From Sulfurimonadaceae bacterium (lineage in GTDB: Bacteria > Campylobacterota > Campylobacteria > Campylobacterales > Sulfurimonadaceae), in contig JADGEC010000025.1 in assembly GCA_016744575.1 (NCBI GenBank), forward strand, positions 1 to 34,449: a stretch of 34,449 nt of DNA, written 5' to 3'. Position numbers and translations under genes: made by a program. Every line of letters starts with the position of its first letter. Position 1 is the first letter of the stretch. Positions 7,836 through 33,733 of this stretch are shown one piece after another. The notes under the pieces were generated by a model. The model saw only the letters and a program-made list of their open reading frames with translations. It was not told where the DNA came from and did not search any database.

Positions 7836-7854
7836 CACCGCCCCCGTAAGCAGG

Positions 7855-7900: not shown

Positions 7901-7903
7901 TCA

Positions 7904-8760: not shown

Positions 8761-8768
8761 TGGTTTAT

Positions 8769-8813: not shown

Positions 8814-8826
8814 TATCAAGCAAGTA

Positions 8827-12776: not shown

Positions 12777-12793
12777 AAATCAAAGGGGTAAGA

Positions 12794-14089: not shown

Positions 14090-14099
14090 TCTTAACGCT

Positions 14100-14116
14100 A
14101 AAGAGCAAAGCTCTTT
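14100..14116 (+). other. Hairpin after the first amt gene
   Basis: AAAGAGC (14100-14106) pairs with GCTCTTT (14110-14116) around AAA, eleven bases after the amt stop. It ends without a T-run. It could stabilise the amt transcript end or act as a weak terminator before glnK. Confidence 0.4.
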
Positions 14117-14179
14117 CAGTTATGTGCTTTGTGTGATCGAACATATTAAGTACAAGGTCTTCTCTAGCAGAAAGCCCAT

Positions 14180-14198
14180 ACGCCCTAGGCGTTTTTTT
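14180..14198 (+). terminator. Terminator-like hairpin abutting the glnK ribosome binding site
   Basis: ACGCC (14180-14184), loop CTA, GGCGT (14188-14192), then an unbroken T-run to 14198. The glnK AAGGA site follows at once (14199-14203), with ATG at 14210. The stem is short (five pairs) but has the full intrinsic-terminator form. Its place makes it a possible attenuator between amt and glnK. Confidence 0.6.
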
Positions 14199-14200
14199 AA

Positions 14201-14548
<348 letters not shown>

Positions 14549-14559
14549 TAAGATGTAGC

Positions 14560-14575
14560 AGGGACACTTGTCCCT
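14560..14575 (+). other. Hairpin downstream of the first glnK
   Basis: AGGGAC (14560-14565) pairs with GTCCCT (14570-14575) around ACTT, twelve bases past the glnK stop codon. AT-rich sequence follows but no real T-run. It is a possible weak terminator. Confidence 0.4.
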
Positions 14576-14691
14576 ATTAAATACTATCTCATGATGTATA
14601 GAGCTCTTTAGACCTCTTTTCACATTTTGAGATGATCAGACTATTCCCCACACAATAAGACCCAACTTTGATCTAAGAACGGAGTCCTTTC

Positions 14692-15909: not shown

Positions 15910-15926
15910 ATTTTAGATAAGATAAC

Positions 15927-15965
15927 GCCAGAAGAGCTGAATGCTCATACAGGGGCACATCTGGC
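15927..15965 (+). other. Stem in the second glnK leader
   Basis: GCCAGA (15927-15932) pairs with TCTGGC (15960-15965) across a 27-base loop in the 82-base gap between amt and glnK. It is modest and may be chance. A GGAG site and the glnK ATG follow. Confidence 0.25.
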
Positions 15966-15988
15966 CTAAAATCAATAAAGCGGAGTAG

Positions 15989-16330
<342 letters not shown>

Positions 16331-16349
16331 TCTTCACTCCCTTTTTACC

Positions 16350-16366
16350 TCCCCGCTTTACGGGGA
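16350..16366 (+). terminator. Hairpin after the second glnK, possible terminator
   Basis: TCCCCG (16350-16355) pairs with CGGGGA (16361-16366) around CTTTA, twenty bases past the glnK stop. It is GC-rich but is followed by CAAATAAAATAAC rather than a T-run. The 150 bases beyond it, before the third amt, are AT-rich and probably hold a separate promoter. Confidence 0.5.
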
Positions 16367-16520
16367 CAAATAAAATAACACTTTTTAGCACTAATTTGTA
16401 GTGATCTTTAGCCAATATAGTAACTTTCAACATTATTAGAGACAAAAAGTAGCCTCTTTTAGCATCACTTTACTGACTGATAATTATAATTACGATCAAA
16501 CTTTATTTAAAGGCTAATAG

Positions 16521-17708
16521 ATGGCTGAAGCAGACTTCTCCTATATTATTGATACTTTCTTCACACTTTTTGCGATGACACTGATCATCTTCATGGTCCC
16601 GGGTTTTGCCATGCTTGAAGCCGGACTGGTGCGGACCAAGAACGTCACGGCGGTACTTACGGTCAACACGATGATCTATGCAGTGGCATCTATGGCCTTT
16701 TTTCTGGTAGGTTACACACTGGCCTTTGGTTCCTGGGAGAACAGCTCGATGAGTATGTGGGCAGCTTTTCTGTTTCAGATGGCCTTTGTAGGTAAGACCA
16801 TCAACATCATGAGTGGCGGAGTAAGTGAGCGTGTTCGTCTCATTCCCTTGACCATCTTCGCGGTCATCATGGGGGCTTTGATCTACCCGACTATCGTCAA
16901 CATCTCTTGGGGAGCGGATATGCTTGATGGCACGATGTTTGATATCAATATGTACGACCTTGCCGGCTCTACGGTCATCCACTCTACCGGAGGCTGGGCA
17001 CTGCTGGCAGCGATCCTTATCGTGGGTGCACGTAAAGGTCGTTATGTGGGGAAAAGGATCCGTGTTATCCCGGCATCGAACATCCCCTTGGTCGTTCTTG
17101 GTGCTTTTTTGCTTTGGATAGGCTGGTTTGGTTTTAATGGTGGTTCGGTCGGATCTATTTCGTCAAAAGAGAATGCTGACGCGGTCGCTTTGACCATCAT
17201 GAATACCAATACAGCAGGTCTTGCCGGAGCCATCATCGCTGGAGTGTTGATGTATATTCGTTATAGATTGCTCGATATCACTATGATCTTAAATGGGGCA
17301 CTTGGTGGATTGGTGGCTGTCACAGCCGGTCCAGATCTGTATGATATCCATACCCCGATCTTGATCGGTGCTATTGGTGGTACCCTGGTCGTATTTGCCG
17401 TTCCGATATTTGATAAGCTGAGACTTGATGATCCGGTGGGTGCACTATCTGTCCACCTTGTCAATGGTATCTGGGGGACCTTGGCTGTGGGTATCTTTGC
17501 TGCGAACCCTGCTGAGGGGATAACCTTTTTTGGACAGCTAAAAGGTGTACTGGTGGTCTTCGGAATTGTCTTCCCAAGTTCACTTGTCGTAATATATGTG
17601 ATCAATAAACTCATCCGTTTCCGGGCAGAAGATGATGCGCAACAAGAAGGGATGGATGTCAATGAGTGTGGTGTCGAGGCATACCCTGAGTTCAAGCGGG
17701 CTATCTAG
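16521..17708 (+). CDS. amt: Ammonium transporter, third copy
   Basis: A 395-residue Amt family channel, closest by eye to the second copy. It lacks a signal peptide (MAEADFSYIIDTFFTLFAMT). The pore residues are W130 (NISWGAD), D146 (YDLAGS), H154 (TVIHSTGGW) and H312 (LSVHLVNG). GFAMLEAGLVRTKN marks helix one and NECGVEAYPEFKRAI the tail. A 190-base gap with a hairpin and AT-rich DNA separates it from glnK, so it may have its own promoter. The ribosome binding site is weak (AAAGG, ten bases before ATG). All transport residues are intact, which argues against a pure sensor role. Confidence 0.94.
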   Translation: MAEADFSYIIDTFFTLFAMTLIIFMVPGFAMLEAGLVRTKNVTAVLTVNTMIYAVASMAFFLVGYTLAFGSWENSSMSMWAAFLFQMAFVGKTINIMSGGVSERVRLIPLTIFAVIMGALIYPTIVNISWGADMLDGTMFDINMYDLAGSTVIHSTGGWALLAAILIVGARKGRYVGKRIRVIPASNIPLVVLGAFLLWIGWFGFNGGSVGSISSKENADAVALTIMNTNTAGLAGAIIAGVLMYIRYRLLDITMILNGALGGLVAVTAGPDLYDIHTPILIGAIGGTLVVFAVPIFDKLRLDDPVGALSVHLVNGIWGTLAVGIFAANPAEGITFFGQLKGVLVVFGIVFPSSLVVIYVINKLIRFRAEDDAQQEGMDVNECGVEAYPEFKRAI

Positions 17709-18995: not shown

Positions 18996-20378
18996 ATGAC
19001 AAATATCATACTATGTGGTGGTACCGGTACGCGTCTGTGGCCGATGAGTCGGACATTGATGCCCAAACAGTTTGTCAAGCTCTTTGATGAGCAGTCACTG
19101 TTTCAGTTGACGTTGACAAGAAACCTCGAGACCTGTGATACCCATATGATAGTCTCGAACGCCGAGCAGTATTTTCTGGCCGTTGACCAGATGCAAGAGC
19201 TTCAGATCGCGGTAGAGGGTGAACATGCCAAGTTCCTATTAGAGCCGGTAGGTAGAAACACCGCCCCTGCTATTGCGTTGGCTTGTCTGGCCCTTGAGCC
19301 TGAGGAGATCGTACTGGTCTCGCCTTCCGATCATCTTATTAAAGATACTAAAGCCTATAGTAAGGTTATTGCCCATGCCAAAAGTCTGGCGGAGGATGGT
19401 GACCTTGTGACCTTCGGGATCACTCCTGAGTTCGCTGAGACCGGATTTGGTTACATCGAAGCTGATGGTGAGGATGTCAAGGCTTTTCATGAGAAGCCTG
19501 ATGCTATTAAGGCTCAAGACTATGTTGATGCCGGTAATTACTACTGGAACAGCGGGATGTTCTGTTTTAAAGCCGGTGTCTTCCTTGAAGAGTTGAAGAA
19601 GTACTCACCGGAGATATATGAGACATCTGTAGTTGCTTATACATCGGCGACTCAAGATGGCATGATCCGTATAGACCATACGGCTATGGCCAATATCCCC
19701 GAAGATAGCATAGATTATGCAGTGATGGAGAAGAGTGAGCGTGTGAAAGTCGTCGCAAGTAGCATTGGGTGGAGTGATCTGGGTAGCTTCGATGCACTCT
19801 CCGAAGAGTTTGAGAAAGACGCTGACGGTAATAGCGTGGATGATAACCTGATTCTCATGGATGCAAAAAAGAACTTCGTCTACTCCAGCGATAGGATGAT
19901 CACTCTCGCTGATGTGGATGAGCTGATCGTCGTGGATACTCCCGATGCACTGTTAGTCACAAAAAAGGGAAGTTCTCAGAAGGTCAAGAAGATCGTCAAT
20001 GAGCTTAAGGCGCGTAAAAGCGACCTTCATCATATCCATCTGACGGCACACCGTCCATGGGGTACCTATACTATATTGGAAGAGAGTGAGAACTATAAGA
20101 TAAAACGTATTGTCGTCAAGCCCGGCAAACGTCTCTCACTTCAGAAACATTTTCATCGTAGTGAGCACTGGATAGTCGTCAGTGGGACGGCGAAGGTGAC
20201 TGTTGGAGAGAAAGAGATATTGGTAAGACCCAATGAGTCGACTTATATCCCCTTGGGAGAGATCCATCGGTTAGAGAATCCAGGAAAGATAGATGTGGTC
20301 CTTATTGAGGCTCAAGTAGGCAGTTATCTGGGGGAAGACGATATCGTCAGACTTCAGGATGATTTTAAACGCGATTAA
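18996..20378 (+). CDS. manC: Mannose-1-phosphate guanylyltransferase / mannose-6-phosphate isomerase
   Basis: A two-domain type II enzyme that makes GDP-mannose from mannose-6-phosphate by way of mannose-1-phosphate. Its 460 residues are typical. The N-terminal nucleotidyltransferase has GGTGTRLWPMSR (8-19), PKQF (23-26), EPVGRNTAPA (83-92), SPSDHL (109-114), FHEKP (164-168) and NSGMF (185-189). The C-terminal cupin isomerase has HRPWG (352-356) and the metal-binding HFHRSEHW (385-392). It is the first gene of the glycan locus, and gmd follows after 11 bases, so GDP-mannose flows straight to GDP-fucose. The phosphomannomutase step must be encoded elsewhere. Confidence 0.95.
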   Translation: MTNIILCGGTGTRLWPMSRTLMPKQFVKLFDEQSLFQLTLTRNLETCDTHMIVSNAEQYFLAVDQMQELQIAVEGEHAKFLLEPVGRNTAPAIALACLALEPEEIVLVSPSDHLIKDTKAYSKVIAHAKSLAEDGDLVTFGITPEFAETGFGYIEADGEDVKAFHEKPDAIKAQDYVDAGNYYWNSGMFCFKAGVFLEELKKYSPEIYETSVVAYTSATQDGMIRIDHTAMANIPEDSIDYAVMEKSERVKVVASSIGWSDLGSFDALSEEFEKDADGNSVDDNLILMDAKKNFVYSSDRMITLADVDELIVVDTPDALLVTKKGSSQKVKKIVNELKARKSDLHHIHLTAHRPWGTYTILEESENYKIKRIVVKPGKRLSLQKHFHRSEHWIVVSGTAKVTVGEKEILVRPNESTYIPLGEIHRLENPGKIDVVLIEAQVGSYLGEDDIVRLQDDFKRD

Positions 20379-20389: not shown

Positions 20390-21508
20390 ATGAGTAAAAA
20401 AGTAGCACTAATAACAGGTATAACAGGACAGGATGGCTCTTATTTGGCAGAGTTCCTTCTAAAGAAAGGATATGAGGTCCATGGTATCAAACGTCGTACT
20501 TCGCTTTTCAACACAGACCGTATCGATCACCTCTATCAGGACCCGCATGAGAAAAATGTCAACTTGACGCTTCATTTTGGTGATATGACTGACTCGATGA
20601 ACCTTACGCGTATCATCCAAGAGACGCAACCTGATGAGATCTATAACCTTGCTGCTATGAGTCATGTCGCCGTCTCTTTCGAGACACCTGAATATGTCGC
20701 TAATGCTGATGGTACCGGAACGTTACGTATTCTTGAAGCAGTCAAACTCCTAGGTCTTACCAGTAAGACACGTATTTATCAGGCCTCTACCTCTGAGCTC
20801 TACGGTAAAGTCCAGGAGGTCCCACAGACTGAGACGACTCCTTTCTATCCACGTTCACCTTACGCGGTAGCGAAGATGTATGCTTACTGGATCACGGTCA
20901 ATTATCGTGAGGCTTACAATATGTTCGCCTGTAACGGTATCCTCTTTAACCATGAGTCACCAGTACGTGGTGAGACTTTCGTCACACGTAAGATCACCCG
21001 TGCTACTTCCAAGATAGCTCTTGGTCTTCAAGATAAAGTCTATCTTGGTAATCTCGATGCCAAACGTGACTGGGGCCATGCCAAGGACTATGTCAAGATG
21101 ATGTGGTTGATCTTGCAAGCCGATGAGCCTGAAGACTGGGTCATCGCTACGGGCGTCACTACGCCTGTACGAGAGTTCGTCCGTATGTCTTTCGCATACG
21201 CAGGTATCGAAATAGAGTTCAAAGGTGTAGGTGTGGATGAGAAGGCATATGTAGTCTCTTGTTCGAATCCTGACTATCAGATAGAGATCGGTAAAGAGGT
21301 CGTCGGTGTAGACCCACGTTACTTCCGTCCTACTGAAGTGGACCTGCTTATCGGTGATCCGACTAAAGCAGAACAGAAACTGGGCTGGACACGTGACCAT
21401 GACCTCAAAGACCTTGTCGATGATATGATGCAGAGTGATCTCAAGCTCATGACTAAAGACCAGTACCTTAAAGATGGTGGTTATACTACCATGAACTATT
21501 TCGAGTAG
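20390..21508 (+). CDS. gmd: GDP-mannose 4,6-dehydratase
   Basis: Gmd converts GDP-D-mannose to GDP-4-keto-6-deoxymannose with bound NADP. The 372-residue short-chain dehydrogenase has the nucleotide-binding GITGQDG (10-16), [15 protein letters not shown], and the catalytic pair Y158 and K162 in [28 protein letters not shown] is the Gmd-specific substrate block. It lies between manC and fcl with gaps of 11 and 8 bases, so the three form a tight GDP-L-fucose unit. The C-terminus ([14 protein letters not shown]) is full length. Confidence 0.97.
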
Positions 21509-21516
21509 GACCTGTA

Positions 21517-22602
21517 GTGAACAAAAACAGTAAGATCTACATAGCTGGACATCGAGGGCTGGTAGGCTCTGCCATCGTCAAGAACCTTGAGTCTAAAGGC
21601 TATACAGACCTTGTATACAGACGACATGCAGAACTCGATCTCACTGACCAGCAAGCTGTCGCGGAGTTCTTTCAGACCGTGAAGCCGGAGTATGTGATCT
21701 TGGCTGCTGCCAAAGTAGGTGGGATCGTCGCTAATAACACCTACCGCGCTGACTTTATCTATGAGAACCTGCAGATCCAGAACAACGTCATCCATCAGAG
21801 TCATCTTAACGGTGTTACGAAGCTGCTCTTCTTGGGCAGTACCTGTATCTACCCTAAGATGGCTCCGCAACCGATGCCTGAAGACAGTCTACTCACTGAT
21901 ACGCTCGAATACACCAATGAACCATATGCTATCGCGAAGATAGCAGGTATCAAGATGTGTGAGAGTTATAACCTACAGTACGGTACCAACTATATCTCTG
22001 TCATGCCGACGAACCTTTACGGTCCTAATGATAACTTCGACCTGGAGAAGAGTCATGTCCTTCCGGCTTTGATCAGAAAGATACATTGTGCGAAACTTCT
22101 AAACGAAGGTAAGTATGATGAAGTAGTCAAAGACCTTGGTGTCGAGACACTTGAAGAGGCTAAGAGTTATCTTCAGGGCTTTGGTGTGGATGAGAAGCGT
22201 GTGGAGATCTGGGGCTCGGGTAAACCGATGCGTGAGTTCCTCTGGTCTGAGGATATGGCAGATGCCTGTGTCTTCTTACTTGAGAACAGAGATTTCAAAG
22301 ACACTTATGAGAGTGTTGATGGCTCCAATGACAGCTGTACTCCAAACAGTGTCCAGACGACAGAGATAAGAAATACCCACATCAACATCGGTACCGGTAA
22401 AGATGTCTCTATCAAAGAGTTGGCTTATCTCATCAAAGAGGTCGTCGGTTTTAAAGGTGAGTTCACATTCAACACTGACAAGCCTGATGGTACGATGAAA
22501 AAGCTCACGGACGTCTCAAAGCTTCATGGACTTGGCTGGCAGCATAAGGTCGAGTTGGAAGAGGGTGTACGCAAGATGTATGGATGGTATCTTGATAAAT
22601 AG
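21517..22602 (+). CDS. fcl: GDP-L-fucose synthase
   Basis: Fcl epimerises and reduces GDP-4-keto-6-deoxymannose to GDP-L-fucose with NADPH. The start codon is GTG at 21517, eight bases after gmd. Signatures are GHRGLVGSA (11-19), LGSTCIYPK (106-114) and the catalytic Y137 and K141 in [10 protein letters not shown]. At 361 residues it is about 40 longer than the E. coli enzyme. The extra is mainly an insertion near 185-220 ([20 protein letters not shown]), a form I associate with other bacterial Fcl proteins. It ends the GDP-fucose unit. No fucosyltransferase is recognisable in the window. Confidence 0.96.
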
Positions 22603-23100
22603 ACTGACTAAGCGTATAATGTCATAATGTTTTATTTAACAGGATCAGATGAATGGTTGATCTTTCTGCAATAAGACTTGACCAGCGCTTTGATACCTTT
22701 GATATAAAGCATGATGTTTGTGTTTGATCAGTATGCTTATGGTCAATAAGATGAAGAAAGTGATATTGATCACTTCATCACGAAGGACTCTTCAGAAGAT
22801 AACATGCATGTTTTTAAAAAATATCATATAGGCATACATAGTAGACTGAAAAGAGAGGGTCACATTATGAATGAAGATGCTTAAGGGAGAGTGTTACAAA
22901 GTGATCATGAAAGAGGAGACGATCTTATATACAAAATAAGATGTATGCTCAAGAGTGGCATGAACTCTCGTATTGAGACTTATATTGGGTAAGTGATGAG
23001 CTTTAAGAACAAAAATAGCAGAGAAAGTGCTTTTACTGTTTTATGCAAAGAGAAATCGATCATTATTGATTTAGCAAAAAAATAGTATTGAAGGGTTTAT
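22603..23100 (+). other. Hairpin-rich 498-base spacer between fcl and the ABC permease gene
   Basis: No credible gene on either strand. Seen stems: GCTTT/AAAGC at 22687-22710, competing with AAGCAT/ATGCTT at 22707-22738; AAGTGAT/ATCACTT at 22758-22775; ATCTTAT/ATAAGAT at 22922-22942; CTCAA-GAG/CTC-TTGAG at 22948-22977; and AAATCGAT/ATTGATTT at 23053-23072. The last lies just upstream of the permease gene. The 12-mer ATGCTCAAGAGT at 22945 recurs at 24894 in the next long spacer. The spacer probably contains a promoter for the transporter pair. Whether it is leader RNA or decayed DNA is not clear. Confidence 0.5.
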
Positions 23101-23946
23101 GTGTATAAAAACGATTCAGTTGTTTATTCATCACAAGATAAGAAAGTAAACTTTATTTGTGCTTTTGTTGAATTATGGCGACAGCTTTATACTAATAGAG
23201 CACAAGTACTTGTCTCTATAAAAAAAGATTTTAAAGTCAAATACCATGATACTCTTTTAGGTATGTTTTGGGCAATAGTGATCCCAATTATCCCTATGAC
23301 TGCATATATGATGCTTTCATCGATCAAAGCTATAAACTCTTCTACAGATATGCCTTATGTCTTTTATATCGCACTTGGGATAACACTTTGGATGTTCATG
23401 TCGAAGATCATGCGAGAATCGATGATGGCTATCAAAAAAGAAAAAGCCATCTTGACTAAGACTAACTACCCTCTTATCAGTATAGTGTTTTCAAAGATGG
23501 GGGAAGTCTTGACAGATACGATGATAAGGATCATAGCTGTTATCGGTATCATGATATGGTTTCAGATCACTCCTGATCCAATGAGCTTTATACTTGGACT
23601 TGTCTTACTTATACCGATCTTTTTTTTCGCACTCTCTACAGGAATGGTCTTAAGTATCATAAACACTATTATCCCCGATACACGAAGACTTTTTGATATT
23701 GTCATGCGCTATGGTATTTTTCTCTCTTCTGTGATATTTCCTTTTCCAGTCGAAGGTATATTAGGTGCTATCAATCGTTTTAATATATTTAATACTTATA
23801 TCAATGCTTTTAGAGATCTGATCTATCATGGAAAAATATTTGATCTCTCTTTACTTGGGTATACAATAGTCTTTACAATACTCATGACTTTTCTGGCTGC
23901 CAAGATCATCCATTATATGAATTATAGAGTAAGGGCATATATATGA
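23101..23946 (+). CDS. wzm: ABC-2 type polysaccharide export permease
   Basis: A 281-residue permease with about six membrane helices (residues 60-82, 96-115, 135-160, 166-190, 203-222 and 252-272). YHDTLLGMFWAIVIPIIPM near residue 50 is the typical start of Wzm/KpsM/TagG-type permeases, with the conserved interfacial segment preceding helix one. It starts with GTG behind an AAGGG site. The ATPase gene overlaps its end by four bases, so the pair forms one exporter that moves a lipid-linked polymer across the inner membrane. The symbol is by family; TagG or KpsM would fit equally. Confidence 0.87.
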   Translation: MYKNDSVVYSSQDKKVNFICAFVELWRQLYTNRAQVLVSIKKDFKVKYHDTLLGMFWAIVIPIIPMTAYMMLSSIKAINSSTDMPYVFYIALGITLWMFMSKIMRESMMAIKKEKAILTKTNYPLISIVFSKMGEVLTDTMIRIIAVIGIMIWFQITPDPMSFILGLVLLIPIFFFALSTGMVLSIINTIIPDTRRLFDIVMRYGIFLSSVIFPFPVEGILGAINRFNIFNTYINAFRDLIYHGKIFDLSLLGYTIVFTILMTFLAAKIIHYMNYRVRAYI

Positions 23947-24698
23947 TGGACGATACGAAAGCTATTGAGATCGACTCTATCTCTAAACGATTCTCTAAAA
24001 ACACAAGATCCTCAAGAATACAATTAAAACAGATCTTATTTGAATGTCTCTTTGGTACAAAGACAAGTAGGGATCTCAATAGCGGTGAGTTCTGGGCATT
24101 AAAAGACCTTAGCTTTGATATCAAAAAAAATGAGAACATCGCGATCCTCGGTCATAATGGTGCGGGAAAAAGTACTTTGCTTAAGATGCTTAACGGTATC
24201 TACCTGCCAGATGAAGGAGAGATCAGGATCCAAGGCAGCATGGCAAGTGTACTAGAACTCTCGACCGGTTTTAATAAGGAGCTTAGTGGTCTACAGAACA
24301 TCTATCTGAAATGTTCACTTTTAGGTATTCCTAAACAAGAAGCTAAAGCCCTAGTCAAAGATATCATTGACTTTTCTGAATTGGAAGAGTTCATGGAGAC
24401 ACCTTTATCTCATTACAGTTCTGGGATGAAAGCACGTCTTGGATTTGCTATTGTCGTGAATATTAAACCTGATATCCTGGTTTTAGATGAAGTCTTTGCA
24501 GTTGGTGATAAAAACTTTAAGTCAAAGTCAGAAAAAGCCATCCGTACCCTCAGTCAGAACACAACGACTATCATTGTCTCACATAGTATGAACATAGTCC
24601 AAAAGACAGCTGATCGGGTACTGGTCTTACAAAAAGGAAGACTTGTCTTTGACGGTGATGTCAAAGAAGGTATAGCATATTACAACGCAATGAAATAA
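23943..24698 (+). CDS. wzt: ABC exporter ATPase, short KpsT/TagH-like form
   Basis: The ATPase partner of the upstream permease. Its 251 residues contain Walker A GHNGAGKST (70-78), signature YSSGMKARLGFA (158-169), Walker B ILVLDEVFAVGD (178-189) and the switch histidine H214. The stretch GSMASVLELSTGFNKELSGL is characteristic of polysaccharide and teichoic-acid ATPases. It lacks the extra C-terminal carbohydrate-binding domain that O-antigen Wzt proteins of 400 or more residues use to recognise a capped chain end. Export is therefore likely not tied to a terminal modification. The first codons read ATG ATG. No gene directly follows, as a 429-base spacer begins here. Confidence 0.9.
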   Translation: MMDDTKAIEIDSISKRFSKNTRSSRIQLKQILFECLFGTKTSRDLNSGEFWALKDLSFDIKKNENIAILGHNGAGKSTLLKMLNGIYLPDEGEIRIQGSMASVLELSTGFNKELSGLQNIYLKCSLLGIPKQEAKALVKDIIDFSELEEFMETPLSHYSSGMKARLGFAIVVNIKPDILVLDEVFAVGDKNFKSKSEKAIRTLSQNTTTIIVSHSMNIVQKTADRVLVLQKGRLVFDGDVKEGIAYYNAMK

Positions 24699-25127
24699 CA
24701 TCATATAGAGGAAGGATGAGTAAAACAGTGTATACTTAGAATCATGAAAAAAGGTATATACACAAAATGAAAAAATGATAATATTAGTGTGTTATCTTGG
24801 GTTTTCGGCAAATACAAAAAATATTTTTTTACGATGTTGTCAGGTAGCAGCCTTTTGAAAGCCATATGATAGATATCATCATAAGTGTTGATGATGCTCA
24901 AGAGTATTACAGCACATGGGATCAGAAAGTGTTGAGGTGAGGAACACCATTGGAAAGGTGCTCTTTACACAAAGATGTTTGGAATGTATGTCAGTCTCGA
25001 AACGCTTAGCAGACCCATACAGAATCAAAGTGAAGCAAGGGTCTAAGAGACTTCGACCTATATAGGTCGAAGTGTCAGTACCTAGATCATGGAAGCTATG
25101 ATCGGCGCAATAAAAGGGAATAAACAT
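24699..25127 (+). other. 429-base spacer with a series of hairpins before the nucleotidyltransferase gene
   Basis: No credible gene. The last 190 bases carry four hairpins in a row. GAACACC/GGTGCTC lies at 24942-24963 (one mismatch). CTTAG-ACCC/GGGT-CTAAG lies at 25005-25047 (nine pairs, one bulge). A perfect 24-base palindrome made of ACTTCGACCTAT and its complement lies at 25050-25073. GATCAT/ATGATC lies at 25085-25103. The series ends 24 bases before the next start codon, so it may form a structured leader. The first 200 bases are AT-rich with no clear signal. Confidence 0.55.
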
Positions 25128-26609
25128 ATGAAAGTAATTATATTAGCTGCAGGTATTGGTTCTAGATTACGACCGTTAACACATTCAAAGCCAAAAGGTA
25201 TGGTCAAGGTCAATGGGATGCCGATCATAGAGCATCAGATCAAGGCATATCTGCAAGCAGGCGTAAGATTAGAAGATATTAATATTGTAGTAGGGTATAA
25301 GGCTAATTTTATTGACGACTTTTTAAACAGTGAATACCCAGAGATAAATATTATCACTAATGAACTGTATGATACGACTAATAATATGTTCTCATTGGAC
25401 TTGTGCTTGAATGCGATCGATGCTGATGACACCTTTATCAGCAATGGCGATTGTGTCTATGATCCTGCTATTATGGAATCATTTATAAGCAATGGGCCTG
25501 AAAATAGTGTGGCAAGTGATAAAGACTCATACACCGATGAGAACATGAAGATCATTGTACAAGATAATAAGATCAAACATATCTCAAAGCAGATCAAGCA
25601 GCCTGAAGCATATGGGAACTCTATTGACCTGTATAGAGTGAGTCGAGACTCGATCCCAAGATTAAAAGAGCTCATCAAGCAGATGATAGAAGAAGACCCC
25701 AATCTATGGTCCGAACTTGCACTTGATAAGCTATTTGCTTTTGTGGACTTTGAGCCGTTCGATATCTTAGGTAGACATTGGATGGAGATCGACAATTATG
25801 ATGATCTCTATGAAGCTGAAAGGAAGTTCTCAGCTTTCAGTCTAGACACAAAAAAAAGCCTAGTCTTTGACCTTGATGGTACCGTATACCTAGGTTCCAG
25901 ACCTATTCAGAACACAATTGACTTTATCAAAGAAAATGATAATAGATTTGATTTCTATTATATGACGAACAATACATCTAAAAGTCTGAGTGATTATGTA
26001 AAGAAGCTTAGTGATTTTGGGATCTCTACATCTTTAGACAAAATAATCTCTCCACTTATCCCTTTGATCGAGTATCTTGAAAAACATAATCTTAAGAATA
26101 TTTATATAGTAGGTAATAGTACTTTTAAAGAGTATCTTCAAAGTAACCTAAAAAATGTTGACTTTACTAACGATAGAGATAAATGCCAGGCAGTACTCGT
26201 AGCTTATGATACAGAATTGGACTATGAGAAACTAAAAGATGCATCTATACTACTGCACGATGAGAAAATAAAGTTCTTGGCAACACACCAGGATGTCGTA
26301 TGTCCTACTGAATATGGCGATATTCCAGATATAGGGGCTATACTGAAGCTTCTTGAACTGACAACACACAGAACACCGACGACTTTTTTTGGTAAACCGA
26401 ATGCAGTCTTATTGGATCCGATCACCAGAAAATATAAGACAGAAGAGATAGCTATTATTGGTGATAGATTATACACGGATAAGGTATTGGCTAACAATGC
26501 AATGATCGACTTTATAATGGTCCTTAGCGGGGAGACAAAAAGAGAGGATATTGAAGATGTCACTGTTTTTCCTGAGCTTATTGTAAAAGATATGGGAGAT
26601 ATGTCTTAA
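25128..26609 (+). CDS. Fused sugar/polyol-phosphate nucleotidyltransferase and HAD-IIA phosphatase
   Basis: A 493-residue two-domain protein. Residues 1-235 are a LicC/RmlA-like nucleotidyltransferase with LAAGIGSRLRPLT (6-18), the KPKGMVKVNG loop, catalytic D108 in NGDCVYD, and WMEIDNYDDLYEAE at 218-231, typical of CTP-dependent LicC-type enzymes. Residues 243-493 are a HAD phosphatase of the NagD-like IIA class: DLDGT (D248, D250), MTNNTS (T280), FGKPN (K423) and GDRLYTD (D446, D451). The ATG at 25128 follows AAAAGGG and is preferred over an in-frame ATG at 25089 that falls inside a hairpin. The GpsA-like gene starts on its stop codon (TAATG). I infer that it activates glycerol phosphate or a related polyol phosphate as the CDP form. 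The HAD substrate is unknown. Confidence 0.82.
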   Translation: MKVIILAAGIGSRLRPLTHSKPKGMVKVNGMPIIEHQIKAYLQAGVRLEDINIVVGYKANFIDDFLNSEYPEINIITNELYDTTNNMFSLDLCLNAIDADDTFISNGDCVYDPAIMESFISNGPENSVASDKDSYTDENMKIIVQDNKIKHISKQIKQPEAYGNSIDLYRVSRDSIPRLKELIKQMIEEDPNLWSELALDKLFAFVDFEPFDILGRHWMEIDNYDDLYEAERKFSAFSLDTKKSLVFDLDGTVYLGSRPIQNTIDFIKENDNRFDFYYMTNNTSKSLSDYVKKLSDFGISTSLDKIISPLIPLIEYLEKHNLKNIYIVGNSTFKEYLQSNLKNVDFTNDRDKCQAVLVAYDTELDYEKLKDASILLHDEKIKFLATHQDVVCPTEYGDIPDIGAILKLLELTTHRTPTTFFGKPNAVLLDPITRKYKTEEIAIIGDRLYTDKVLANNAMIDFIMVLSGETKREDIEDVTVFPELIVKDMGDMS

Positions 26610-27580
26610 TGAAAATTGCTATTATTGGCGGTGGTTCTTTTGGTACGGCGATCGCTCAAGTGTTAGCTACGAATAACGACATGACGTTGCTAATGCGTAA
26701 TAAAGAATTAGTGAATACTATAAATTCATCAAAAGTCAATACAGCATATTTTCCAAATATTCTATTAGATGACAATATCAGTGCCAGTACAGATTATAAG
26801 AAGAGTGGTGAAATGGATATTGTCATCTTCTGTGTCCCATCAAAATATGTTATTTCTGAGTATAAAAAAATAAAACCTTATATTTCAAAGAAAACAGTGT
26901 TAATAAATACCGCAAAAGGATTTGCAACAAAACGACAAACCATATTGAAGACTATTAAAAAAGAGCATAAAAATAGTTTTTCGATCTTGGGTCCCACCTT
27001 TGCAAACAATCTTATTAAAAACGAATACTCAGCATTTACTATTGCATCTGACAGAGAAGAGCATTTTGATCTAGCAAAAACGATCTTTCGTAATACAAAT
27101 GTTATTATTGATCATTCAAAAGAGTATGAATTGATAGAGATGGCATCCATATTAAAAAACATCTTCGCTATTGCCAATGGTCTTTATGATTCACTTGATG
27201 ATGGAGTAAATACAAAGTACGCCTTTTTAACACAGTCCTATAAGGAATTGATAATAATCCTTGAAGCGATGTTTGGAGAGATCTCAGATAACTATACAAA
27301 AAATGCTGTCTTTGGTGATCTACTATTGACATCATTGAACGATCAAAGTAGAAATAAGACTTTGGGTCAACTTATTGGTAGAGGGTTTTATACAGTCAAT
27401 AAGAAATCAGGAGTCATCCTAGAAGGAGTCCGTTCCGCTAAAAAGATCCATGCTATTACAAATCAATATAGACTAAATACACCGATCATAGCATTTGTCA
27501 ACGATATTCTAAAGGGTGAGAATGTGAATAAAGCGCATAATAGATGTCTGCAGGAAATCAAAGACATTGGCTACTTATAA
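26609..27580 (+). CDS. GpsA-like NAD(P)-dependent glycerol-3-phosphate dehydrogenase
   Basis: A 323-residue relative of GpsA, which reduces dihydroxyacetone phosphate to sn-glycerol-3-phosphate. It has the Rossmann motif GGGSFGTA (7-14), GPTFA (128-132, usually GPSFA), the catalytic lysine K183 in ILKNIFAIANG, and FGDLLLTSLNDQSRN (236-249), matching the GpsA block GDL-L-T-x-SRN. The start codon overlaps the stop of the nucleotidyltransferase gene by one base, so the two are translationally linked. It is visibly AT-rich: one sampled 60-base line has 18 G+C. This looks like a pathway-dedicated paralogue feeding glycerol phosphate to the polymer. A housekeeping gpsA would be expected elsewhere. 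A different keto-polyol phosphate substrate is possible. Confidence 0.85.
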   Translation: MKIAIIGGGSFGTAIAQVLATNNDMTLLMRNKELVNTINSSKVNTAYFPNILLDDNISASTDYKKSGEMDIVIFCVPSKYVISEYKKIKPYISKKTVLINTAKGFATKRQTILKTIKKEHKNSFSILGPTFANNLIKNEYSAFTIASDREEHFDLAKTIFRNTNVIIDHSKEYELIEMASILKNIFAIANGLYDSLDDGVNTKYAFLTQSYKELIIILEAMFGEISDNYTKNAVFGDLLLTSLNDQSRNKTLGQLIGRGFYTVNKKSGVILEGVRSAKKIHAITNQYRLNTPIIAFVNDILKGENVNKAHNRCLQEIKDIGYL

Positions 27581-27750
27581 GTCGAAGACGGAATACTTAT
27601 TTAGTCGTGCTACAGGACACTCCAGATACTAGATCAGTATATGTACAGGATCACAACGTTTGATGATGTGATGTCTACTTGAAAGATGATGTATTGAATA
27701 TGGATATGTACAGAGTCGACATATTAAAAATCAGGGGGTAGAGGATTCTT
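27581..27750 (+). other. 170-base spacer with repeats
   Basis: No gene. It holds a small palindromic stem, ATACT/AGTAT (27626-27640), and a direct repeat of ATATGTACAG at 27639-27648 and 27704-27713. A strong GGGGGTAG ribosome binding site ends it before the next ATG. A promoter is possible but not clear. Confidence 0.35.
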
Positions 27751-28983
27751 ATGAGAAAAAAGAAAAAGATAAGAAGTGAGATCAAAAAAATAATCAGGGT
27801 CTTGAAGCGGACCTTGATCTTTATGATATCTCACTTTATAAAAAAAGATAAGAACATATGGGTATTTGGTGCACATATGGGGAAAAAGTACACCGATAAC
27901 GCCAGATATTTGTATGAGTACATAAATGCTAATACTGACATCCAGGCAGTATGGTTAACGAAAAATAAAAAAGTGGTAAAAGAGTTAAGGAAACAAGGAT
28001 TACCCGCCTATTCTATGTATAGTAAACAAGGTAGGTTTTTTGCGATGAGAGCGAAAGTCGCATTCTATACACATAGAAGTATTATCTACTTCGATCTACC
28101 TTTTTACGCTTTTACAAAAAAGACAAAGTTGGTTCTTTTATGGCACGGCATACCATTGAAAAAAATAGGGTATGATGACAAGATCTTTAGTTTTAAAGAT
28201 GATGAAGAGAGTCTTAAATATAAAATAAAAAAATTTAAGAAAGAAAGACTATTCCCTTTTTTCAACTATGCACATCAACCAGATGTGGTCTTAGCGTTAT
28301 CTACAACGACAGTCAAACTTTTCTCGCAGGCATTTAGAGTCCCAGAATCAAATGTCTTGATCACTGGATACCCAAGAAATGACATGTTTTTTGAAGAAAA
28401 TAAGATCGTAGAATCAAAACATAAGAACAAACATGCCATATATATGCCGACTTTCAGAAACAAAGGTGCTGGCTTTGACCTTTTCATGCAGTATGACTTT
28501 GATGTAGAAGAGTTTGATAGGTTTTTAGAGGCTGAAGGTGTACGATTGTATATTAAATTACATCCTTTTAACCATCCCACAGAAGCATTATTAAGAAAGA
28601 TAATGTTTTCAGACAATATTCGATTTTTGAACTATGATGCGATCTACGATGTCATAAATGATTTTGATATACTGATCACTGATTACTCAAGTATATATTT
28701 TGATTTTTTGTTATCAAAAAAACCTATCATCTTTACACCATTTGATCACGAAGAGTTTATTGAAGGACACAGGGAACTCTATTTTGATTATGATGAAGTG
28801 ACTCCAGGTCCAAAAGCCAAGGATTGGAGAGAGGTGATGACATGTATAGAAAAATTCAATCAGAGTCCAGAGTGGTATCAAGAAGAGAGAGAACAGATCA
28901 GTGAACAGTTCCATCTTAATCAAGATGGGAATAGTTCTAAACGTGTTTATGAAGAGGTCTTGGGATTACTATCAAAAGAGTAG
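27751..28983 (+). CDS. CDP-glycerol glycerophosphotransferase family protein (TagB/TagF-like), first
   Basis: A 410-residue member of the Glyphos_transf family. These membrane-associated enzymes move glycerol phosphate (or ribitol phosphate) from the CDP form to a lipid-linked acceptor. Signatures are LLWHGIPLKKIGYD (129-142), GYPRND (206-211), YMPTFR (231-236), KLHPF (269-273) and the active-site TDYSSIYFDFL (310-320). The latter is followed by the SKKPIIF strand, FDHEEF and the TPGP loop, as in TagF. The basic N-terminus (MRKKKKIRSEIKK) and a hydrophobic patch at 20-30 suit membrane attachment. It lies downstream of the enzymes that could make the CDP-glycerol donor. Primase or polymerase activity cannot be told from sequence. 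Confidence 0.87.
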   Translation: MRKKKKIRSEIKKIIRVLKRTLIFMISHFIKKDKNIWVFGAHMGKKYTDNARYLYEYINANTDIQAVWLTKNKKVVKELRKQGLPAYSMYSKQGRFFAMRAKVAFYTHRSIIYFDLPFYAFTKKTKLVLLWHGIPLKKIGYDDKIFSFKDDEESLKYKIKKFKKERLFPFFNYAHQPDVVLALSTTTVKLFSQAFRVPESNVLITGYPRNDMFFEENKIVESKHKNKHAIYMPTFRNKGAGFDLFMQYDFDVEEFDRFLEAEGVRLYIKLHPFNHPTEALLRKIMFSDNIRFLNYDAIYDVINDFDILITDYSSIYFDFLLSKKPIIFTPFDHEEFIEGHRELYFDYDEVTPGPKAKDWREVMTCIEKFNQSPEWYQEEREQISEQFHLNQDGNSSKRVYEEVLGLLSKE

Positions 28984-29203
28984 TCTATGACTCCTTATAC
29001 TACTCGATCATGACAAGACTCTCTCAGGAAAAGATGGATAGTCGTAAGAGATCTGTTTAAGAGATGCAGCATATCCTTCAGAACATATATTGAGGTAATA
29101 TAAGTCTTGCTCTAGATCCATATATGAACATAACATCAAGTCGACGGGTCTATATAGGATGTCGTTTACAATTAGATGTGCTTACAGATGATAAAGTCAA
29201 AAT
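28984..29203 (+). other. 220-base spacer between the two TagB/F-like genes
   Basis: No gene and no strong hairpin seen. It is AT-rich. The GGTCTATATAGGA piece near 29150 loosely recalls the core of the 25050-25073 palindrome but is too short to claim kinship. The next gene has only a weak ribosome binding site. Confidence 0.3.
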
Positions 29204-30334
29204 ATGAAAAAGATCACTTTTCTATTGTTGAATATACCTTTACGATTTCTCTTTTTGTTCTCAAGGATCATGATCAGGGATAAGAGGATCATAGTGTTCG
29301 GGGTACATACCAATACACTTTTTGGCAATGTCAAAGAACTCCTGGAACGCTCAGGATGTTCAGATGTTAGAAAGATCTTCATCGGTAGGACTAAAAAAGA
29401 TGTCGCTGATGCAAGGTCTTCGGTTCAAGAAGCCTATTGGAAATATAGTCTCAAAGGGATTTGGTATAGTCTCAAAGCTGGAGGCTACCTTTATTCGAGT
29501 TATCCTTCTGATATTAATTATTGGTTATCTGGAGGAGCTAGATATATTAATGTCTGGCATGGAACACCTATTAAGAGGATCGAGAGAGATGTGACGACAG
29601 GGTATTATGCATTAAGAAATCGTTTTTCTTGGATGTACCGCATCTTCGCACCATATCTGTTTATCACTCCAGATGCGATGCTGGTCGCATCAGACTTCGA
29701 GAAACAGTGTCTAATATCAGCTTTTGGTATTGATGAAGAGCGATGTGTCGAGGCATATCCTCCCAGACTACAGTATCTTGAAAGAGAGAGGTCTCACATA
29801 ACAGAGACTGTGTCACGAAAAGTCCTGTACGTACCAACATGGCGTGATGACCACTCTTTCGTCTTACATGAACACGTCGACCTAGTCAAGTTGAACAATC
29901 AATTGATATCAGAAGATATAGAGATGTATGTAAAGGCACATCCGGTTGACCAAAAGACCCACGTTCAGCAGAAATACTCGAATATTTACGTGGTCGATAA
30001 AGACATAGATGTCTACGAGCTACTTGCAGGGTGTGATCTTCTTTTGACAGATTACTCTTCGATGATGTTTGAAGCGTTGTATCTGAACATCGCAGTCATA
30101 CTTTTCTGTCCTGATCTTGATCATTACCGTTTGACAAATCGTGAGTTTTATATCGATCCCTGTCAAGGACTTCCAGTGACTTCGGTTTATAGTGGGGCTG
30201 AGCTAGGGAAAGCTATAATATCACGTTTAAACGACTTTACTTTAGAAGTGGATCTGAAGAAAAAGTTTATGCCGTATACGAGAGATACAGAGTTGTTATG
30301 TAGACTTATGAATAAGGCTTATAAGAATGGTTGA
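29204..30334 (+). CDS. CDP-glycerol glycerophosphotransferase family protein (TagB/TagF-like), second
   Basis: A 376-residue second Glyphos_transf protein, clearly diverged from the first. It keeps NVWHGTPIKRIERD (116-129), AYPPR, YVPTWRDD (209-216), VKAHPVD (243-249) and LTDYSSMMFEALYL (281-294). The N-terminus has a hydrophobic stretch (ITFLLLNIPLRFLFLFS) that could anchor it. Its pattern HGTP with YPPR/PTWRD is closer to TagB-type primases than the first copy, but that is only a visual judgement. One copy may add the first phosphoglycerol unit and the other repeat units, or they may act on different sugars. The glf gene overlaps its end by eight bases. Confidence 0.85.
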   Translation: MKKITFLLLNIPLRFLFLFSRIMIRDKRIIVFGVHTNTLFGNVKELLERSGCSDVRKIFIGRTKKDVADARSSVQEAYWKYSLKGIWYSLKAGGYLYSSYPSDINYWLSGGARYINVWHGTPIKRIERDVTTGYYALRNRFSWMYRIFAPYLFITPDAMLVASDFEKQCLISAFGIDEERCVEAYPPRLQYLERERSHITETVSRKVLYVPTWRDDHSFVLHEHVDLVKLNNQLISEDIEMYVKAHPVDQKTHVQQKYSNIYVVDKDIDVYELLAGCDLLLTDYSSMMFEALYLNIAVILFCPDLDHYRLTNREFYIDPCQGLPVTSVYSGAELGKAIISRLNDFTLEVDLKKKFMPYTRDTELLCRLMNKAYKNG

Positions 30335-31475
30335 CTATATTGTCGTAGGAGCCGGTTTCGCCGGTGCAGTCCTGGCGGAGAGAATAGCTGAAAGAGACGA
30401 TAATAAAGTCCTAGTCATCGAGAGGCGTGATCATATTGGTGGGAACTGTTTTGACTTCATGGATGAGAATGGCATCATCCGCCATAAGTATGGTCCTCAC
30501 CTTTTTCATACGAATAGCAGACGCGTAGTCGATTATCTCTCAGCGTTCACACGATGGCATAAGTACGAACATGAGGTATTGGCATCAGTGGATGGGAAGA
30601 ACATCCCAATCCCCTTTAACATCAATACATTATATGAAGTCTATCCGACAGATAAGGCGAAAAGACTCGAAGATAAGCTGATAGGCCTATATGGAAAGGG
30701 GAGTAAGATCCCGATCCTAGAGCTCAAGAAGACAGATGATGAGGAATTGAGAGCGTTAAGTCACTATATCTATGAAAAGATATTTGTGAACTATACGGCT
30801 AAGCAGTGGGGTATGCGTCCTGAGGATATCGATCCTGCTGTCACTGCTCGAGTCCCAGTCTCACTCAGTAGGGACGACCGTTACTTTACCGATAGTTTTC
30901 AGGCAGTGCCGCAGGATGGTTATACGAGGCTGTTTGAATCGATGTTTGATCATCCAAACATCGAGGTCGAGTTAAATAGATCAGCTAGTGATGTCCTAGA
31001 TATCACAGAGAATGGTATCAAATATCTAGGCCGTCCTTTTCACGGCAGAGTGATCTTTACCGGTATGATCGATGAACTTTTCGAGGATCAGTTCGGGCGG
31101 TTGCCCTATCGCTCATTGCGGCTCGATTTTGAGACAGTGTCTAAAGAGCTTTTTCAAGAGAAAGCAGTTGTGAACTACCCCAATGATCATGACTATACGA
31201 GGATCACGGAGTTTAAACATATTCATCCGGCAGAGACAAAAAAGACGACCCTCTTAAAAGAGTATCCTCAGGCATATATTCGTGGAAAGAACACGCCGTA
31301 TTATCCTATCTTTACCGATGAGAACCAGCAAAGATATGAGAAGTATAAAGAGTTTGTGGCAAACATTCCAAACTTGATACTTGCAGGTAGGTTAGCTGAG
31401 TACCGCTATTATGATATGGATGACATCATATTAAGAGCTTTGGAGTTGTCTGATGAGATCTTGCATGGAATGTGA
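30327..31475 (+). CDS. glf: UDP-galactopyranose mutase
   Basis: Glf is a flavoenzyme that interconverts UDP-galactopyranose and UDP-galactofuranose, so the glycan probably contains galactofuranose. The 382-residue protein has the FAD motif VGAGFAGAVLAERI (7-20), RRDHIGGNCFD (33-43), GPHLFHTNS and the C-terminal GRLAEYRYYDMDD. KYGPHLFHT and the FTGMIDELF segment are family blocks. It overlaps the TagB/F-like gene by eight bases and is followed by the DUF4422 gene after three bases. The three are thus translated as one unit. Confidence 0.95.
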   Translation: MVDYIVVGAGFAGAVLAERIAERDDNKVLVIERRDHIGGNCFDFMDENGIIRHKYGPHLFHTNSRRVVDYLSAFTRWHKYEHEVLASVDGKNIPIPFNINTLYEVYPTDKAKRLEDKLIGLYGKGSKIPILELKKTDDEELRALSHYIYEKIFVNYTAKQWGMRPEDIDPAVTARVPVSLSRDDRYFTDSFQAVPQDGYTRLFESMFDHPNIEVELNRSASDVLDITENGIKYLGRPFHGRVIFTGMIDELFEDQFGRLPYRSLRLDFETVSKELFQEKAVVNYPNDHDYTRITEFKHIHPAETKKTTLLKEYPQAYIRGKNTPYYPIFTDENQQRYEKYKEFVANIPNLILAGRLAEYRYYDMDDIILRALELSDEILHGM

Positions 31476-31478: not shown

Positions 31479-32246
31479 ATGATCAGTAAGGCAAAGGTCC
31501 TGATCGCGACTCATAAGGCCTACGAGTTTCCTCAAGATATGATGTACCTGCCTGTCCAGGTAGGAAAGAGTCTTAGTCAGGATGATCTTGGTTACGCAAA
31601 AGATGATATGGGTGAGAACATCTCGGAGAAAAACCGCTCTTTTAATGAGTTGACTGCTCTATACTGGGCATGGAAGAACGATATTTTTAAAGGTCATGAT
31701 ATCTGTGGGCTGGTACATTACCGTAGGTATTTTGCCGGTAAGAGTGCTTCTGTCAAAGGAAAGGATGTCCTGGGATCGGACGAAGTCACGTCGTTGATGC
31801 GGGAGTATGACGTGATCGTGCCAAAACGAAGAAGATATTATGTGGAGACGATCAAAGACCATTATGCTCATGCCCATCATAAAAAGGATCTCGATATCAT
31901 CCGGCAATTGATACTCGAACACTCCGGAGAGTATACAGACGCTTTTGATAGTGTGATGCAACAGCGGAGTCTATATCTTTACAATATGTTTCTGATGCGA
32001 CCGGCTTTGTTTACTGCCTATTGTGAATGGGTCTTTCCCTTGCTATTTGAACTAGAAAGGCGGATCGATATAAGTGATTATGACGATTATCAGAGGAGAG
32101 TCTTTGGATTTCTCTCTGAGAGACTTTTTAACGTCTGGCTGTTGAGACATGATCTGAAGGTCAAGGAATCACCGGTAGTCAACATCGAAGGCGAAGAGCT
32201 ATTACGCAAAGGAATAAATATGCTAAAACGAAAGATACTTGGATAA
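31479..32246 (+). CDS. DUF4422 glycosyltransferase-like protein
   Basis: A 255-residue protein of the DUF4422 family, found in capsule and O-antigen loci and regarded as glycosyltransferases. Typical blocks are IATHKAYEFP, the ISEKNRSFNELTALYWAWKN segment, GLVHYRRYF and the end part FLSERLFNVWLLRH. A ribosome binding site (GAGAG) lies inside the glf end. Its direct linkage to glf (three-base gap) suggests that it uses UDP-galactofuranose or another galactose donor. No membrane helix is present, so it is cytosolic or peripheral. Confidence 0.82.
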   Translation: MISKAKVLIATHKAYEFPQDMMYLPVQVGKSLSQDDLGYAKDDMGENISEKNRSFNELTALYWAWKNDIFKGHDICGLVHYRRYFAGKSASVKGKDVLGSDEVTSLMREYDVIVPKRRRYYVETIKDHYAHAHHKKDLDIIRQLILEHSGEYTDAFDSVMQQRSLYLYNMFLMRPALFTAYCEWVFPLLFELERRIDISDYDDYQRRVFGFLSERLFNVWLLRHDLKVKESPVVNIEGEELLRKGINMLKRKILG

Positions 32247-32374: not shown

Positions 32375-33733
32375 ATGCGATATTTTATATTCAAGTCTTT
32401 GCTCTATACCTTTTTCCTTGCACTCAATCTTTACATCGCGGCAGAGTTCTCTTATTTATTTATAGAGTATCCGGAACATCACTCTTTTGGTCAATACCTT
32501 TGGCAGATGCCAGCCTATTTCATCTTCTATTTTTATTATAAACTGATGACGCGTCGGATGGTCACCTCGAGTGAGTTCATCTTGATGCAAAAAGCAAACC
32601 TCTTTGCATTGGTGATCATCGTCTCTATCATCTTTGTCTCCAAGACTTCCGATGATTACTCTCGTGCGATCATCCTGGTCTACTTCTTATTGAACGTCCT
32701 AAGTCCGATATGGGTCTATCTGATAAAACGTGAAGTGATGAAGAATGATTTCTTTAGAAAGGATATCTTCGTCGTTAGTGATGCGGATGGCTACAAGAAC
32801 ATAGAGAAGTGGTTTACCCATGATAATGCCTTTGGTTTTGATGTCAAAGAGGTCTTGATGGTCGATACTCTTTCGCATCAGGAGATGAAAGATGCTATTG
32901 ATCGATGCATTGAGTCAGGGGAGTATCACGCTGCGGTCATCGCGTTAGACAAAGTAGGGCGTTCAAGGACTTTCTATTACATCGACCATATACAGCATCA
33001 TATCAGTCGTGTCATCGTCCTTCCGAAATTGACCAGGATGCCCCTTTTTAATGCAGAGATCTTTAACTCTATCAACCATAAGGGTATGGCATTTTTTGTT
33101 AAGAACAACCTTTTAAACCCTGTTGACAGGTTGTTGAAAGTCATATTTGATACGATTATGACGGCCATATTGATACTCCTGTTTTCTCCTATATTGATGA
33201 GTCTATACATCTTGGTATATATCTCTACAAAAGGACATCCTATCTACAAACAGAGGCGTATAGGTCATAATGGAAGAGCATTTAAGATCTATAAGTTCAG
33301 AAGTATGCGTATGGATGCAGACCAAGTCTTAGAAGAGTTACTCGAAAATGATCCCGATGCAAAAGTGGAGTGGGAAAAAGAGTTTAAGCTTAAAGATGAT
33401 CCTCGAATCACTAAGATAGGGGCTTTTTTGCGTAAGACATCACTGGACGAGTTGCCTCAGCTCATCAATGTCTTAAACAGTCAGATGTCATTAGTCGGTC
33501 CACGCCCTATAGTCAAGGCCGAGATAGAGAAGTATGGTGATTACTTTGACTATTTTAAAGCCGTAAAACCCGGGATAACTGGTCTTTGGCAGATCAGTGG
33601 AAGAAATGACATCGATTACGATGAGCGTGTACAGTTGGATGTATGGTACACCAGAAACTGGTCAGTCGAACTTGATATCGTCATCTTACTTAAGACTGCT
33701 GTCGTCGTCTTGAGTAGAAAAGGCAGTTATTAG
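32375..33733 (+). CDS. WbaP-type undecaprenyl-phosphate sugar-phosphate transferase
   Basis: A 452-residue polyprenyl-phosphate hexose-1-phosphate transferase that loads the first sugar onto undecaprenyl phosphate. Four N-terminal helices (about 6-28, 44-57, 75-89 and 98-116) and a middle DUF/CoA-binding-like region (130-220) precede the catalytic part. This begins with a re-entrant helix (253-285). Catalytic motifs are YKFRSM (306-311), DDPRITK (341-347), SLDELPQL (356-363), GPRP (375-378) and PGITGLWQISGRN (399-411). The full-length architecture matches WbaP, whose usual substrate is UDP-galactose. That agrees with glf and DUF4422 nearby. The ATG at 32375 follows AAAGGA. An ATG at 32371 is out of frame. 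Confidence 0.9.
   Translation: MRYFIFKSLLYTFFLALNLYIAAEFSYLFIEYPEHHSFGQYLWQMPAYFIFYFYYKLMTRRMVTSSEFILMQKANLFALVIIVSIIFVSKTSDDYSRAIILVYFLLNVLSPIWVYLIKREVMKNDFFRKDIFVVSDADGYKNIEKWFTHDNAFGFDVKEVLMVDTLSHQEMKDAIDRCIESGEYHAAVIALDKVGRSRTFYYIDHIQHHISRVIVLPKLTRMPLFNAEIFNSINHKGMAFFVKNNLLNPVDRLLKVIFDTIMTAILILLFSPILMSLYILVYISTKGHPIYKQRRIGHNGRAFKIYKFRSMRMDADQVLEELLENDPDAKVEWEKEFKLKDDPRITKIGAFLRKTSLDELPQLINVLNSQMSLVGPRPIVKAEIEKYGDYFDYFKAVKPGITGLWQISGRNDIDYDERVQLDVWYTRNWSVELDIVILLKTAVVVLSRKGSY

Follow-up and report, generated by a model that had tools for sequence, protein, structure and literature searches.

The window, a 34,449-nucleotide stretch of the genome of a Sulfurimonadaceae bacterium, holds in its 3′ half a surface-polymer gene cluster. 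Near the middle of this cluster lies a single reading frame that joins a nucleotidyltransferase (NT) domain to a HAD-IIA domain, followed by a gene for a GpsA-like dehydrogenase and by two genes of the CDP-glycerol glycerophosphotransferase family:

18996..20378, + strand: ManC-type mannose-1-phosphate guanylyltransferase / mannose-6-phosphate isomerase
20390..21508, + strand: Gmd, GDP-mannose 4,6-dehydratase
21517..22602, + strand: Fcl, GDP-L-fucose synthase-like
23101..23946, + strand: Wzm-like ABC-2 polysaccharide exporter permease
23943..24698, + strand: Wzt-like polysaccharide exporter ATPase
25128..26609, + strand: NT–HAD fusion, putatively CTP-dependent nucleotidyltransferase (LicC/PntC-like) plus HAD-IIA domain
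26609..27580, + strand: GpsA-like NAD(P)H glycerol-phosphate dehydrogenase
27751..28983, + strand: PF04464 CDP-glycerol glycerophosphotransferase family, likely CDP-polyol user
29204..30334, + strand: second PF04464 glycerophosphotransferase-family protein
30327..31475, + strand: UDP-galactopyranose mutase, galactofuranose donor
31479..32246, + strand: DUF4422 protein, probably a glycosyltransferase (function from context)
32375..33733, + strand: WbaP-type undecaprenyl-phosphate hexose-1-phosphate transferase, polymer initiation

The GC content is 34–38% over 22.5–30 kb (22501–30000), as against 43–49% upstream of 22.5 kb, and this low-GC stretch spans the genes for the exporter, the fusion, the GpsA-like enzyme and the glycerophosphotransferases. 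Given this drop, the surface-polymer cluster, the fusion gene included, was probably imported. The fusion gene is preceded by a 430-base intergenic region (24699–25127) that contains a perfect palindrome, CTTCGACCTATATAGGTCGAAG, at 25051–25072. Farther upstream, at 12773–17708, lies an unusually dense block for ammonium uptake, in which three ammonium transporter genes are interleaved with two genes for P-II regulators (amt, P-II, amt, P-II, amt). A flagellar regulator FlgR of the Campylobacter type places the DNA in Campylobacterota.

Glycerol-3-phosphate cytidylyltransferases of the TagD/TarD/Gct type make the same class of product as is proposed here (CDP-glycerol), but belong to a different family, CTP_transf_like. 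An earlier note on this DNA had seen no TagD in it and had named a tagD or gct gene elsewhere in the genome, supplying all CDP-glycerol, as a refutation of its proposal. The absence extends to the whole assembly (3.59 Mb in 228 contigs, 100% complete), which contains three CTP_transf_like matches and no protein above the TagD cut-off (TIGR01518; best score 55 bits against 165.4). The reading frame behind this sole TagD-profile match proved to be HldE.

Architecture of the fusion protein and its nucleotidyltransferase clade

The longest reading frame of the fusion runs from 25089 to 26609 (506 codons). Its in-frame ATG at 25089 is an unlikely start; that at 25128 is preferred because relatives begin at the methionine encoded there, because AAAGGGA lies 8 bases 5′ of this ATG, and because the fold model of the longer form shows no structure for its first 9 residues. 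The start chosen in the earlier note, 25128, is therefore the better one. Numbered from 25089, the NT domain occupies residues 14–250 and the HAD-IIA domain residues 256–505, with Pfam matches at residues 15–136 (NTP_transferase/NTP_transf_3) and 259–504 (Hydrolase_6 and Hydrolase_like). The fold model is confident (mean pLDDT 94.3, pTM 0.89); its NT half matches LicC with a Z score of 27.6 over 225 residues, and its HAD half matches TM1742 (1VJR) with a Z score of 33.0. That a LicC-like domain is fused to a domain of HAD phosphatase fold, as first described, is thus borne out by Pfam, by the fold model and by the fused homologues considered below.

The solved structures closest to the NT clade are those of the CTP enzymes LicC, PntC and IPCT, and by family the NT domain would likewise use CTP. 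The domain retains Arg26 and Lys36 of the CTP site, Asp121, Glu233 and Asp235 as metal ligands, and Lys167, which guides the phosphate; these roles are assigned from PMC6697681, the two C-terminal acids being placed by alignment with the LicC metal site. On the HAD side, DLDGT with its nucleophile Asp261, TNN, GKP and GDRLYTD are all kept, and the initial description of intact catalytic residues in both domains stands. The resemblance to LicC (CTP:phosphocholine cytidylyltransferase, 1JYK/1JYL) thus comprises the fold and the catalytic residues R26, K36, D121, E233 and D235, whereas Asn119 stands in place of the pocket acid D105, a lic operon is absent, and a HAD domain is fused. PntC and PntC-AEPT (2-aminoethylphosphonate cytidylyltransferase, 6PD1/6PD2) share the fold and provide a precedent for fusion of this type of NT to a pathway partner; however, their Glu104 is again replaced by Asn119, the partner in the window is a HAD rather than an aminotransferase, and the cluster lacks phosphonate genes, with no match to ppm/AEPT among its annotated reading frames.

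The 12 NTs found in gene sets of this kind form one clade (bootstrap 81, SH-aLRT 96), and the three fused NTs, from the window and from loci L029 and L030, group together (99/92). A profile of the clade gives 311–371 bits for these NTs and no more than 175 for LicC/PntC-like proteins outside it, scores that favour the former since 10 of the 12 sit in the profile's own alignment; the tree is unaffected by this. Asn119 is invariant in the clade (12/12) and aligns where LicC and PntC place an acid near the substrate amine (D105 of the LicC choline pocket, Glu104 of PntC), and the combination of M100, D180 and Y182 was seen in the clade only. NNM at 98–100, N119 and D180/Y182 could serve as markers by which to find such polymers in genomes. 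Asn119 was dropped as proof of a non-amine substrate: an NT outside the clade, at locus L011 near an aminotransferase gene, has it too, and Asn119 alone therefore does not exclude an amino substrate. Another Campylobacterota genome (G008) carries, at 5883–8531 of locus L019, a LicC/PntC-like gene that stands alone, near one of aminotransferase type; the encoded protein has Asn in its pocket, as the clade does, and the neighborhood of the gene looks phosphonate-like.

A GpsA-like enzyme in a recurrent gene set

The gene at 26609–27580 matches NAD_Gly3P_dh_N and NAD_Gly3P_dh_C over its whole length. It begins, as had been noticed, on the stop codon of the fusion, the TAA at 26607–26609 overlapping the ATG at 26609 as TAATG. 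The same genome contains a canonical gpsA, truncated at the edge of contig C108 and 27% identical to the window gene; the latter is therefore a second, diverged copy, in keeping with the GpsA paralogue of the earlier note. Its DHAP-binding and catalytic residues are kept (the Lys of KG, LKN, the Asp of GDL, Thr and SRN), roles taken over from structures of glycerol-3-phosphate dehydrogenases. The protein departs from canonical GpsA at two other conserved positions and falls below the curated GpsA cut-offs. By family, it would make sn-glycerol-3-phosphate, the enantiomer opposite to the product expected of the iron enzymes that occupy its place elsewhere. No glycerol-1-phosphate dehydrogenase was found in the window's genome, whose only Fe-ADH_2 match (contig C107, 30 bits) reads from its sequence as 3-dehydroquinate synthase.

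The same NT–HAD fusion occurs in an uncultured bacterium (L029, 46%) and in an alphaproteobacterial MAG (L030, 44%), in both cases with no adjoining dehydrogenase gene. In nine other loci, NT and HAD are encoded by two genes that either adjoin or have a single gene between them. These are Clostridia MAGs (L031, L032, L033 and L053, the last with HAD, dehydrogenase and NT consecutive), MAGs labelled Eisenbergiella, Neglectibacter and Lachnospiraceae (L047, L054, L065), Arenibacter echinorum DSM 23522 (L094), and a genome of the class to which Amedibacillus belongs (L126), in which Fe-ADH_2, NT and HAD lie in a row. The pairing of this NT clade with a separate HAD-IIA gene thus extends over Clostridia, Bacteroidota and Bacilli. 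Since the homologues show either fusion or adjacency of NT and HAD, chance is excluded. It was the NT profile, with no HAD pattern, that led to the last locus, and mainly HAD patterns that led to the others; L126 is therefore an independent confirmation of the pairing. PF04464 genes lie beside or near the set in L032, L033, L065, L094 and L126; the matches at L029 and L030 are weak.

Where a dehydrogenase partner belongs to Fe-ADH_2 (PF13685), as in L031, L053, L065, L094 and L126, it is of the iron-containing type. Four of these partners were run against NCBIfam, and their best match was NAD(P)-dependent glycerol-1-phosphate dehydrogenase, at 216–286 bits against a cut-off of 413. On comparative genomic grounds, dehydrogenase, NT and HAD constitute a real module, of which the window holds the fused form, with a GpsA-like enzyme in place of the usual iron-containing dehydrogenase. 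The design is not peculiar to this genome, as the fused homologues in two other genomes and the separate-gene sets elsewhere show; it is the GpsA itself that is unusual. Among 397 Campylobacterota genomes, neither the fusion nor the GpsA-like gene was found a second time (1e-30 / 1e-38). A single-protein scan of genome contigs returned no relative, whereas the HAD-alignment scan did find relatives, and searches of plasmids and phages returned single-domain relatives only. A search for the NT clade in the class and phylum of Amedibacillus found nothing beyond L126, and no close Streptococcus GpsA was found in the class drawn around Amedibacillus.

Descent of the HAD domain

The HAD domain exceeds the TIGR01460 cut-off (107 bits against 100). 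With the HAD-IIA phosphatases TM1742 (1VJR), NagD and the glycerol phosphate phosphatase Rv1692 (4I9F) it shares the fold, DxD, the Lys of GKP and the GDR motif; it differs from them in being fused to a cytidylyltransferase, and a phosphatase role for it is putative. Whereas the NTs of the module make up a single clade, the HADs paired with them do not, and common descent of the fused and separate HADs from a single NT–HAD pair was rejected (AU p 3e-8). A single origin of the three fused HADs is compatible with the tree test (p 0.40). The group that contains the window HAD comprises the two remaining fused HADs and seven that stand alone, six of the seven near GlpA/GlpD or GlpT genes, and the partner lineages occur beside GlpA/GlpD/GDPD/GlpT genes. 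About 27 of some 77 stand-alone-HAD loci carry such glycerol-phosphate genes within the DNA covered, a proportion that includes some broad family matches and has no null expectation beside it. Since the HADs are polyphyletic and come from lineages of glycerol-phosphate operons, a glycerol-phosphate HAD seems, from these trees and neighborhoods, to have been enlisted repeatedly by a single NT lineage.

In Desulfovibrio MAGs (L036, at 6986–10700, L037 and L043), a stand-alone relative of the fused HAD lies beside or near FAD proteins that resemble the glycerol-3-phosphate dehydrogenase GlpA; the FAD neighbor in L036 has about 980 residues and two FAD-binding regions.

These neighborhoods bear on two other explanations. 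The first holds that a different phospho-polyol or phospho-alcohol (a tetritol, pentitol, serinol or derivative) is activated and that the HAD trims the second phosphate of a bisphosphate intermediate. Relatives in the LicC/PntC/IPCT group do take diverse phospho-alcohols and phosphonates (PMC6697681), and some pairs of HAD-IIA and Fe-ADH lie in clusters of unknown substrate. Nevertheless, the GpsA-like and glycerol-1-phosphate dehydrogenase-like partners point to a three-carbon DHAP or glycerol-phosphate substrate, the closest stand-alone HADs adjoin glycerol-3-phosphate dehydrogenases, and PF04464 enzymes neighbor the modules, all of which make this explanation quite improbable. The second is salvage, in which the HAD would free glycerol from glycerol phosphates, the NT would use glycerol phosphate made elsewhere, and the fusion would merely co-localize unrelated steps. 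We regard it as highly improbable: although HAD-IIA phosphatases hydrolyze glycerol phosphate and relatives of this HAD occur in glp operons, the repeated NT–HAD pairing, the compact fusion and the TAATG-coupled dehydrogenase argue for consecutive steps.

A candidate route to CDP-2-glycerol

Our preferred reading, to which we assign a probability of about 0.5, is that the fusion and the GpsA-like enzyme form a compact, rewired CDP-2-glycerol (Gtp-type) module that would feed a phosphoglycerol-containing surface polymer. To judge from its retained active-site residues, the GpsA-like enzyme would reduce DHAP to sn-glycerol-3-phosphate. The nucleophilic aspartate of the HAD would then take up the phosphoryl group and give it back to glycerol at the 2-hydroxyl, so forming achiral glycerol-2-phosphate, onto which the NT would move CMP from CTP, with CDP-2-glycerol as the predicted product. 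One or both PF04464 enzymes would add phosphoglycerol to the polymer, and the Wzm/Wzt-like transporter would export it. One polypeptide and one dehydrogenase could thereby make the precursor. The single pathway envisaged in the earlier note holds in so far as the recurrent gene set suggests that NT, HAD and dehydrogenase together feed the glycerophosphotransferases in place of TagD.

HAD enzymes proceed via a phospho-aspartate, and HAD phosphomutases exist; return of the phosphoryl group to O2 is therefore chemically reasonable. The activity for which HAD-IIA enzymes are known is that of a phosphatase, and they are not known to act as glycerol phosphomutases. That this HAD-IIA domain is a glycerol-phosphate phosphomutase, shifting the phosphate from the 1/3- to the 2-position rather than hydrolyzing it, with the fusion performing both the mutase and the cytidylyltransferase steps, is a tentative proposal that we consider less likely than not. 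If it is true, DHAP reductases of either stereochemistry could feed the same CDP-2-glycerol synthase. The suggestion that the HAD step serves isomer selection would survive in spirit, the domain most plausibly shifting which hydroxyl bears the phosphate.

The interchange of glycerol-1-phosphate-type and glycerol-3-phosphate-type dehydrogenases points to a later achiral intermediate, either glycerol or glycerol-2-phosphate: suppliers of opposite handedness would be interchangeable because chirality would be lost downstream. The dehydrogenase swap and the repeated HAD recruitment make the origin of glycerol-2-phosphate a two-protein question. The same interchange weighs against a more conventional reading, in which CDP-glycerol would be made from sn-glycerol-3-phosphate, the LicC-like enzyme replacing TagD and the HAD acting as an editing or flux-control phosphatase that clears wrong or surplus phosphates. 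Those PF04464 partners whose function is known take CDP-1(3)-glycerol, genuine glycerol phosphate phosphatases such as Rv1692 occur among the HAD-IIA relatives, and the DHAP residues of the GpsA-like enzyme are intact, all as such a reading would have it. Yet the same NT clade elsewhere pairs with a glycerol-1-phosphate-type dehydrogenase, which would supply the opposite enantiomer, and a merely protective phosphatase is unexpected beside every NT of the clade, recruited repeatedly and fused. This conventional route is thus rather unlikely.

The CDP-2-glycerol reading takes its lead from Gtp1-Gtp2-Gtp3, a pathway of Streptococcus pneumoniae capsules of types 15 and 23F (Wang et al. 2010, J Bacteriol; cited in PMC3716944). 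The pneumococcal genes gtp1 (dehydrogenase), gtp2 (nucleotidyltransferase) and gtp3 (phosphotransferase) lie after wchX in types 15B/C and 23F. The likeness to our module, which may be a functional analogy, is one of gene roles and order alone: dehydrogenase, nucleotidyltransferase and phosphotransferase genes that adjoin, within a polysaccharide locus, a gene for a glycerol phosphotransferase. Among the relatives with separate genes, L126 in particular has the same kind and order of genes. As in a Gtp-type set, the NT is associated with a HAD (fused in three loci, near in nine) and a dehydrogenase is present, although its type varies, GpsA-like in the window and Fe-ADH_2 elsewhere. The window departs from the pneumococcal arrangement in having NT and HAD in one protein, a GpsA-like instead of an iron-containing dehydrogenase, and a Gram-negative host. 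In the original work on CDP-2-glycerol, Gtp1 reportedly reduces dihydroxyacetone (on which, not DHAP, it was assayed), Gtp3 is said to convert glycerol to glycerol-2-phosphate, and Gtp2 to carry out the CTP transfer; Gtp3 itself we take to be a HAD-IIA protein. The module probably extends the rare CDP-activated glycerol pathway of pneumococcal capsules to a Gram-negative phylum.

Stand-alone HAD-IIA genes were also seen together with Fe-ADH-like and GlpA/GlpD genes at five loci (L013, L052, L061, L062 and L084), gene sets that perhaps represent a catabolic route for unusual glycerol phosphates.
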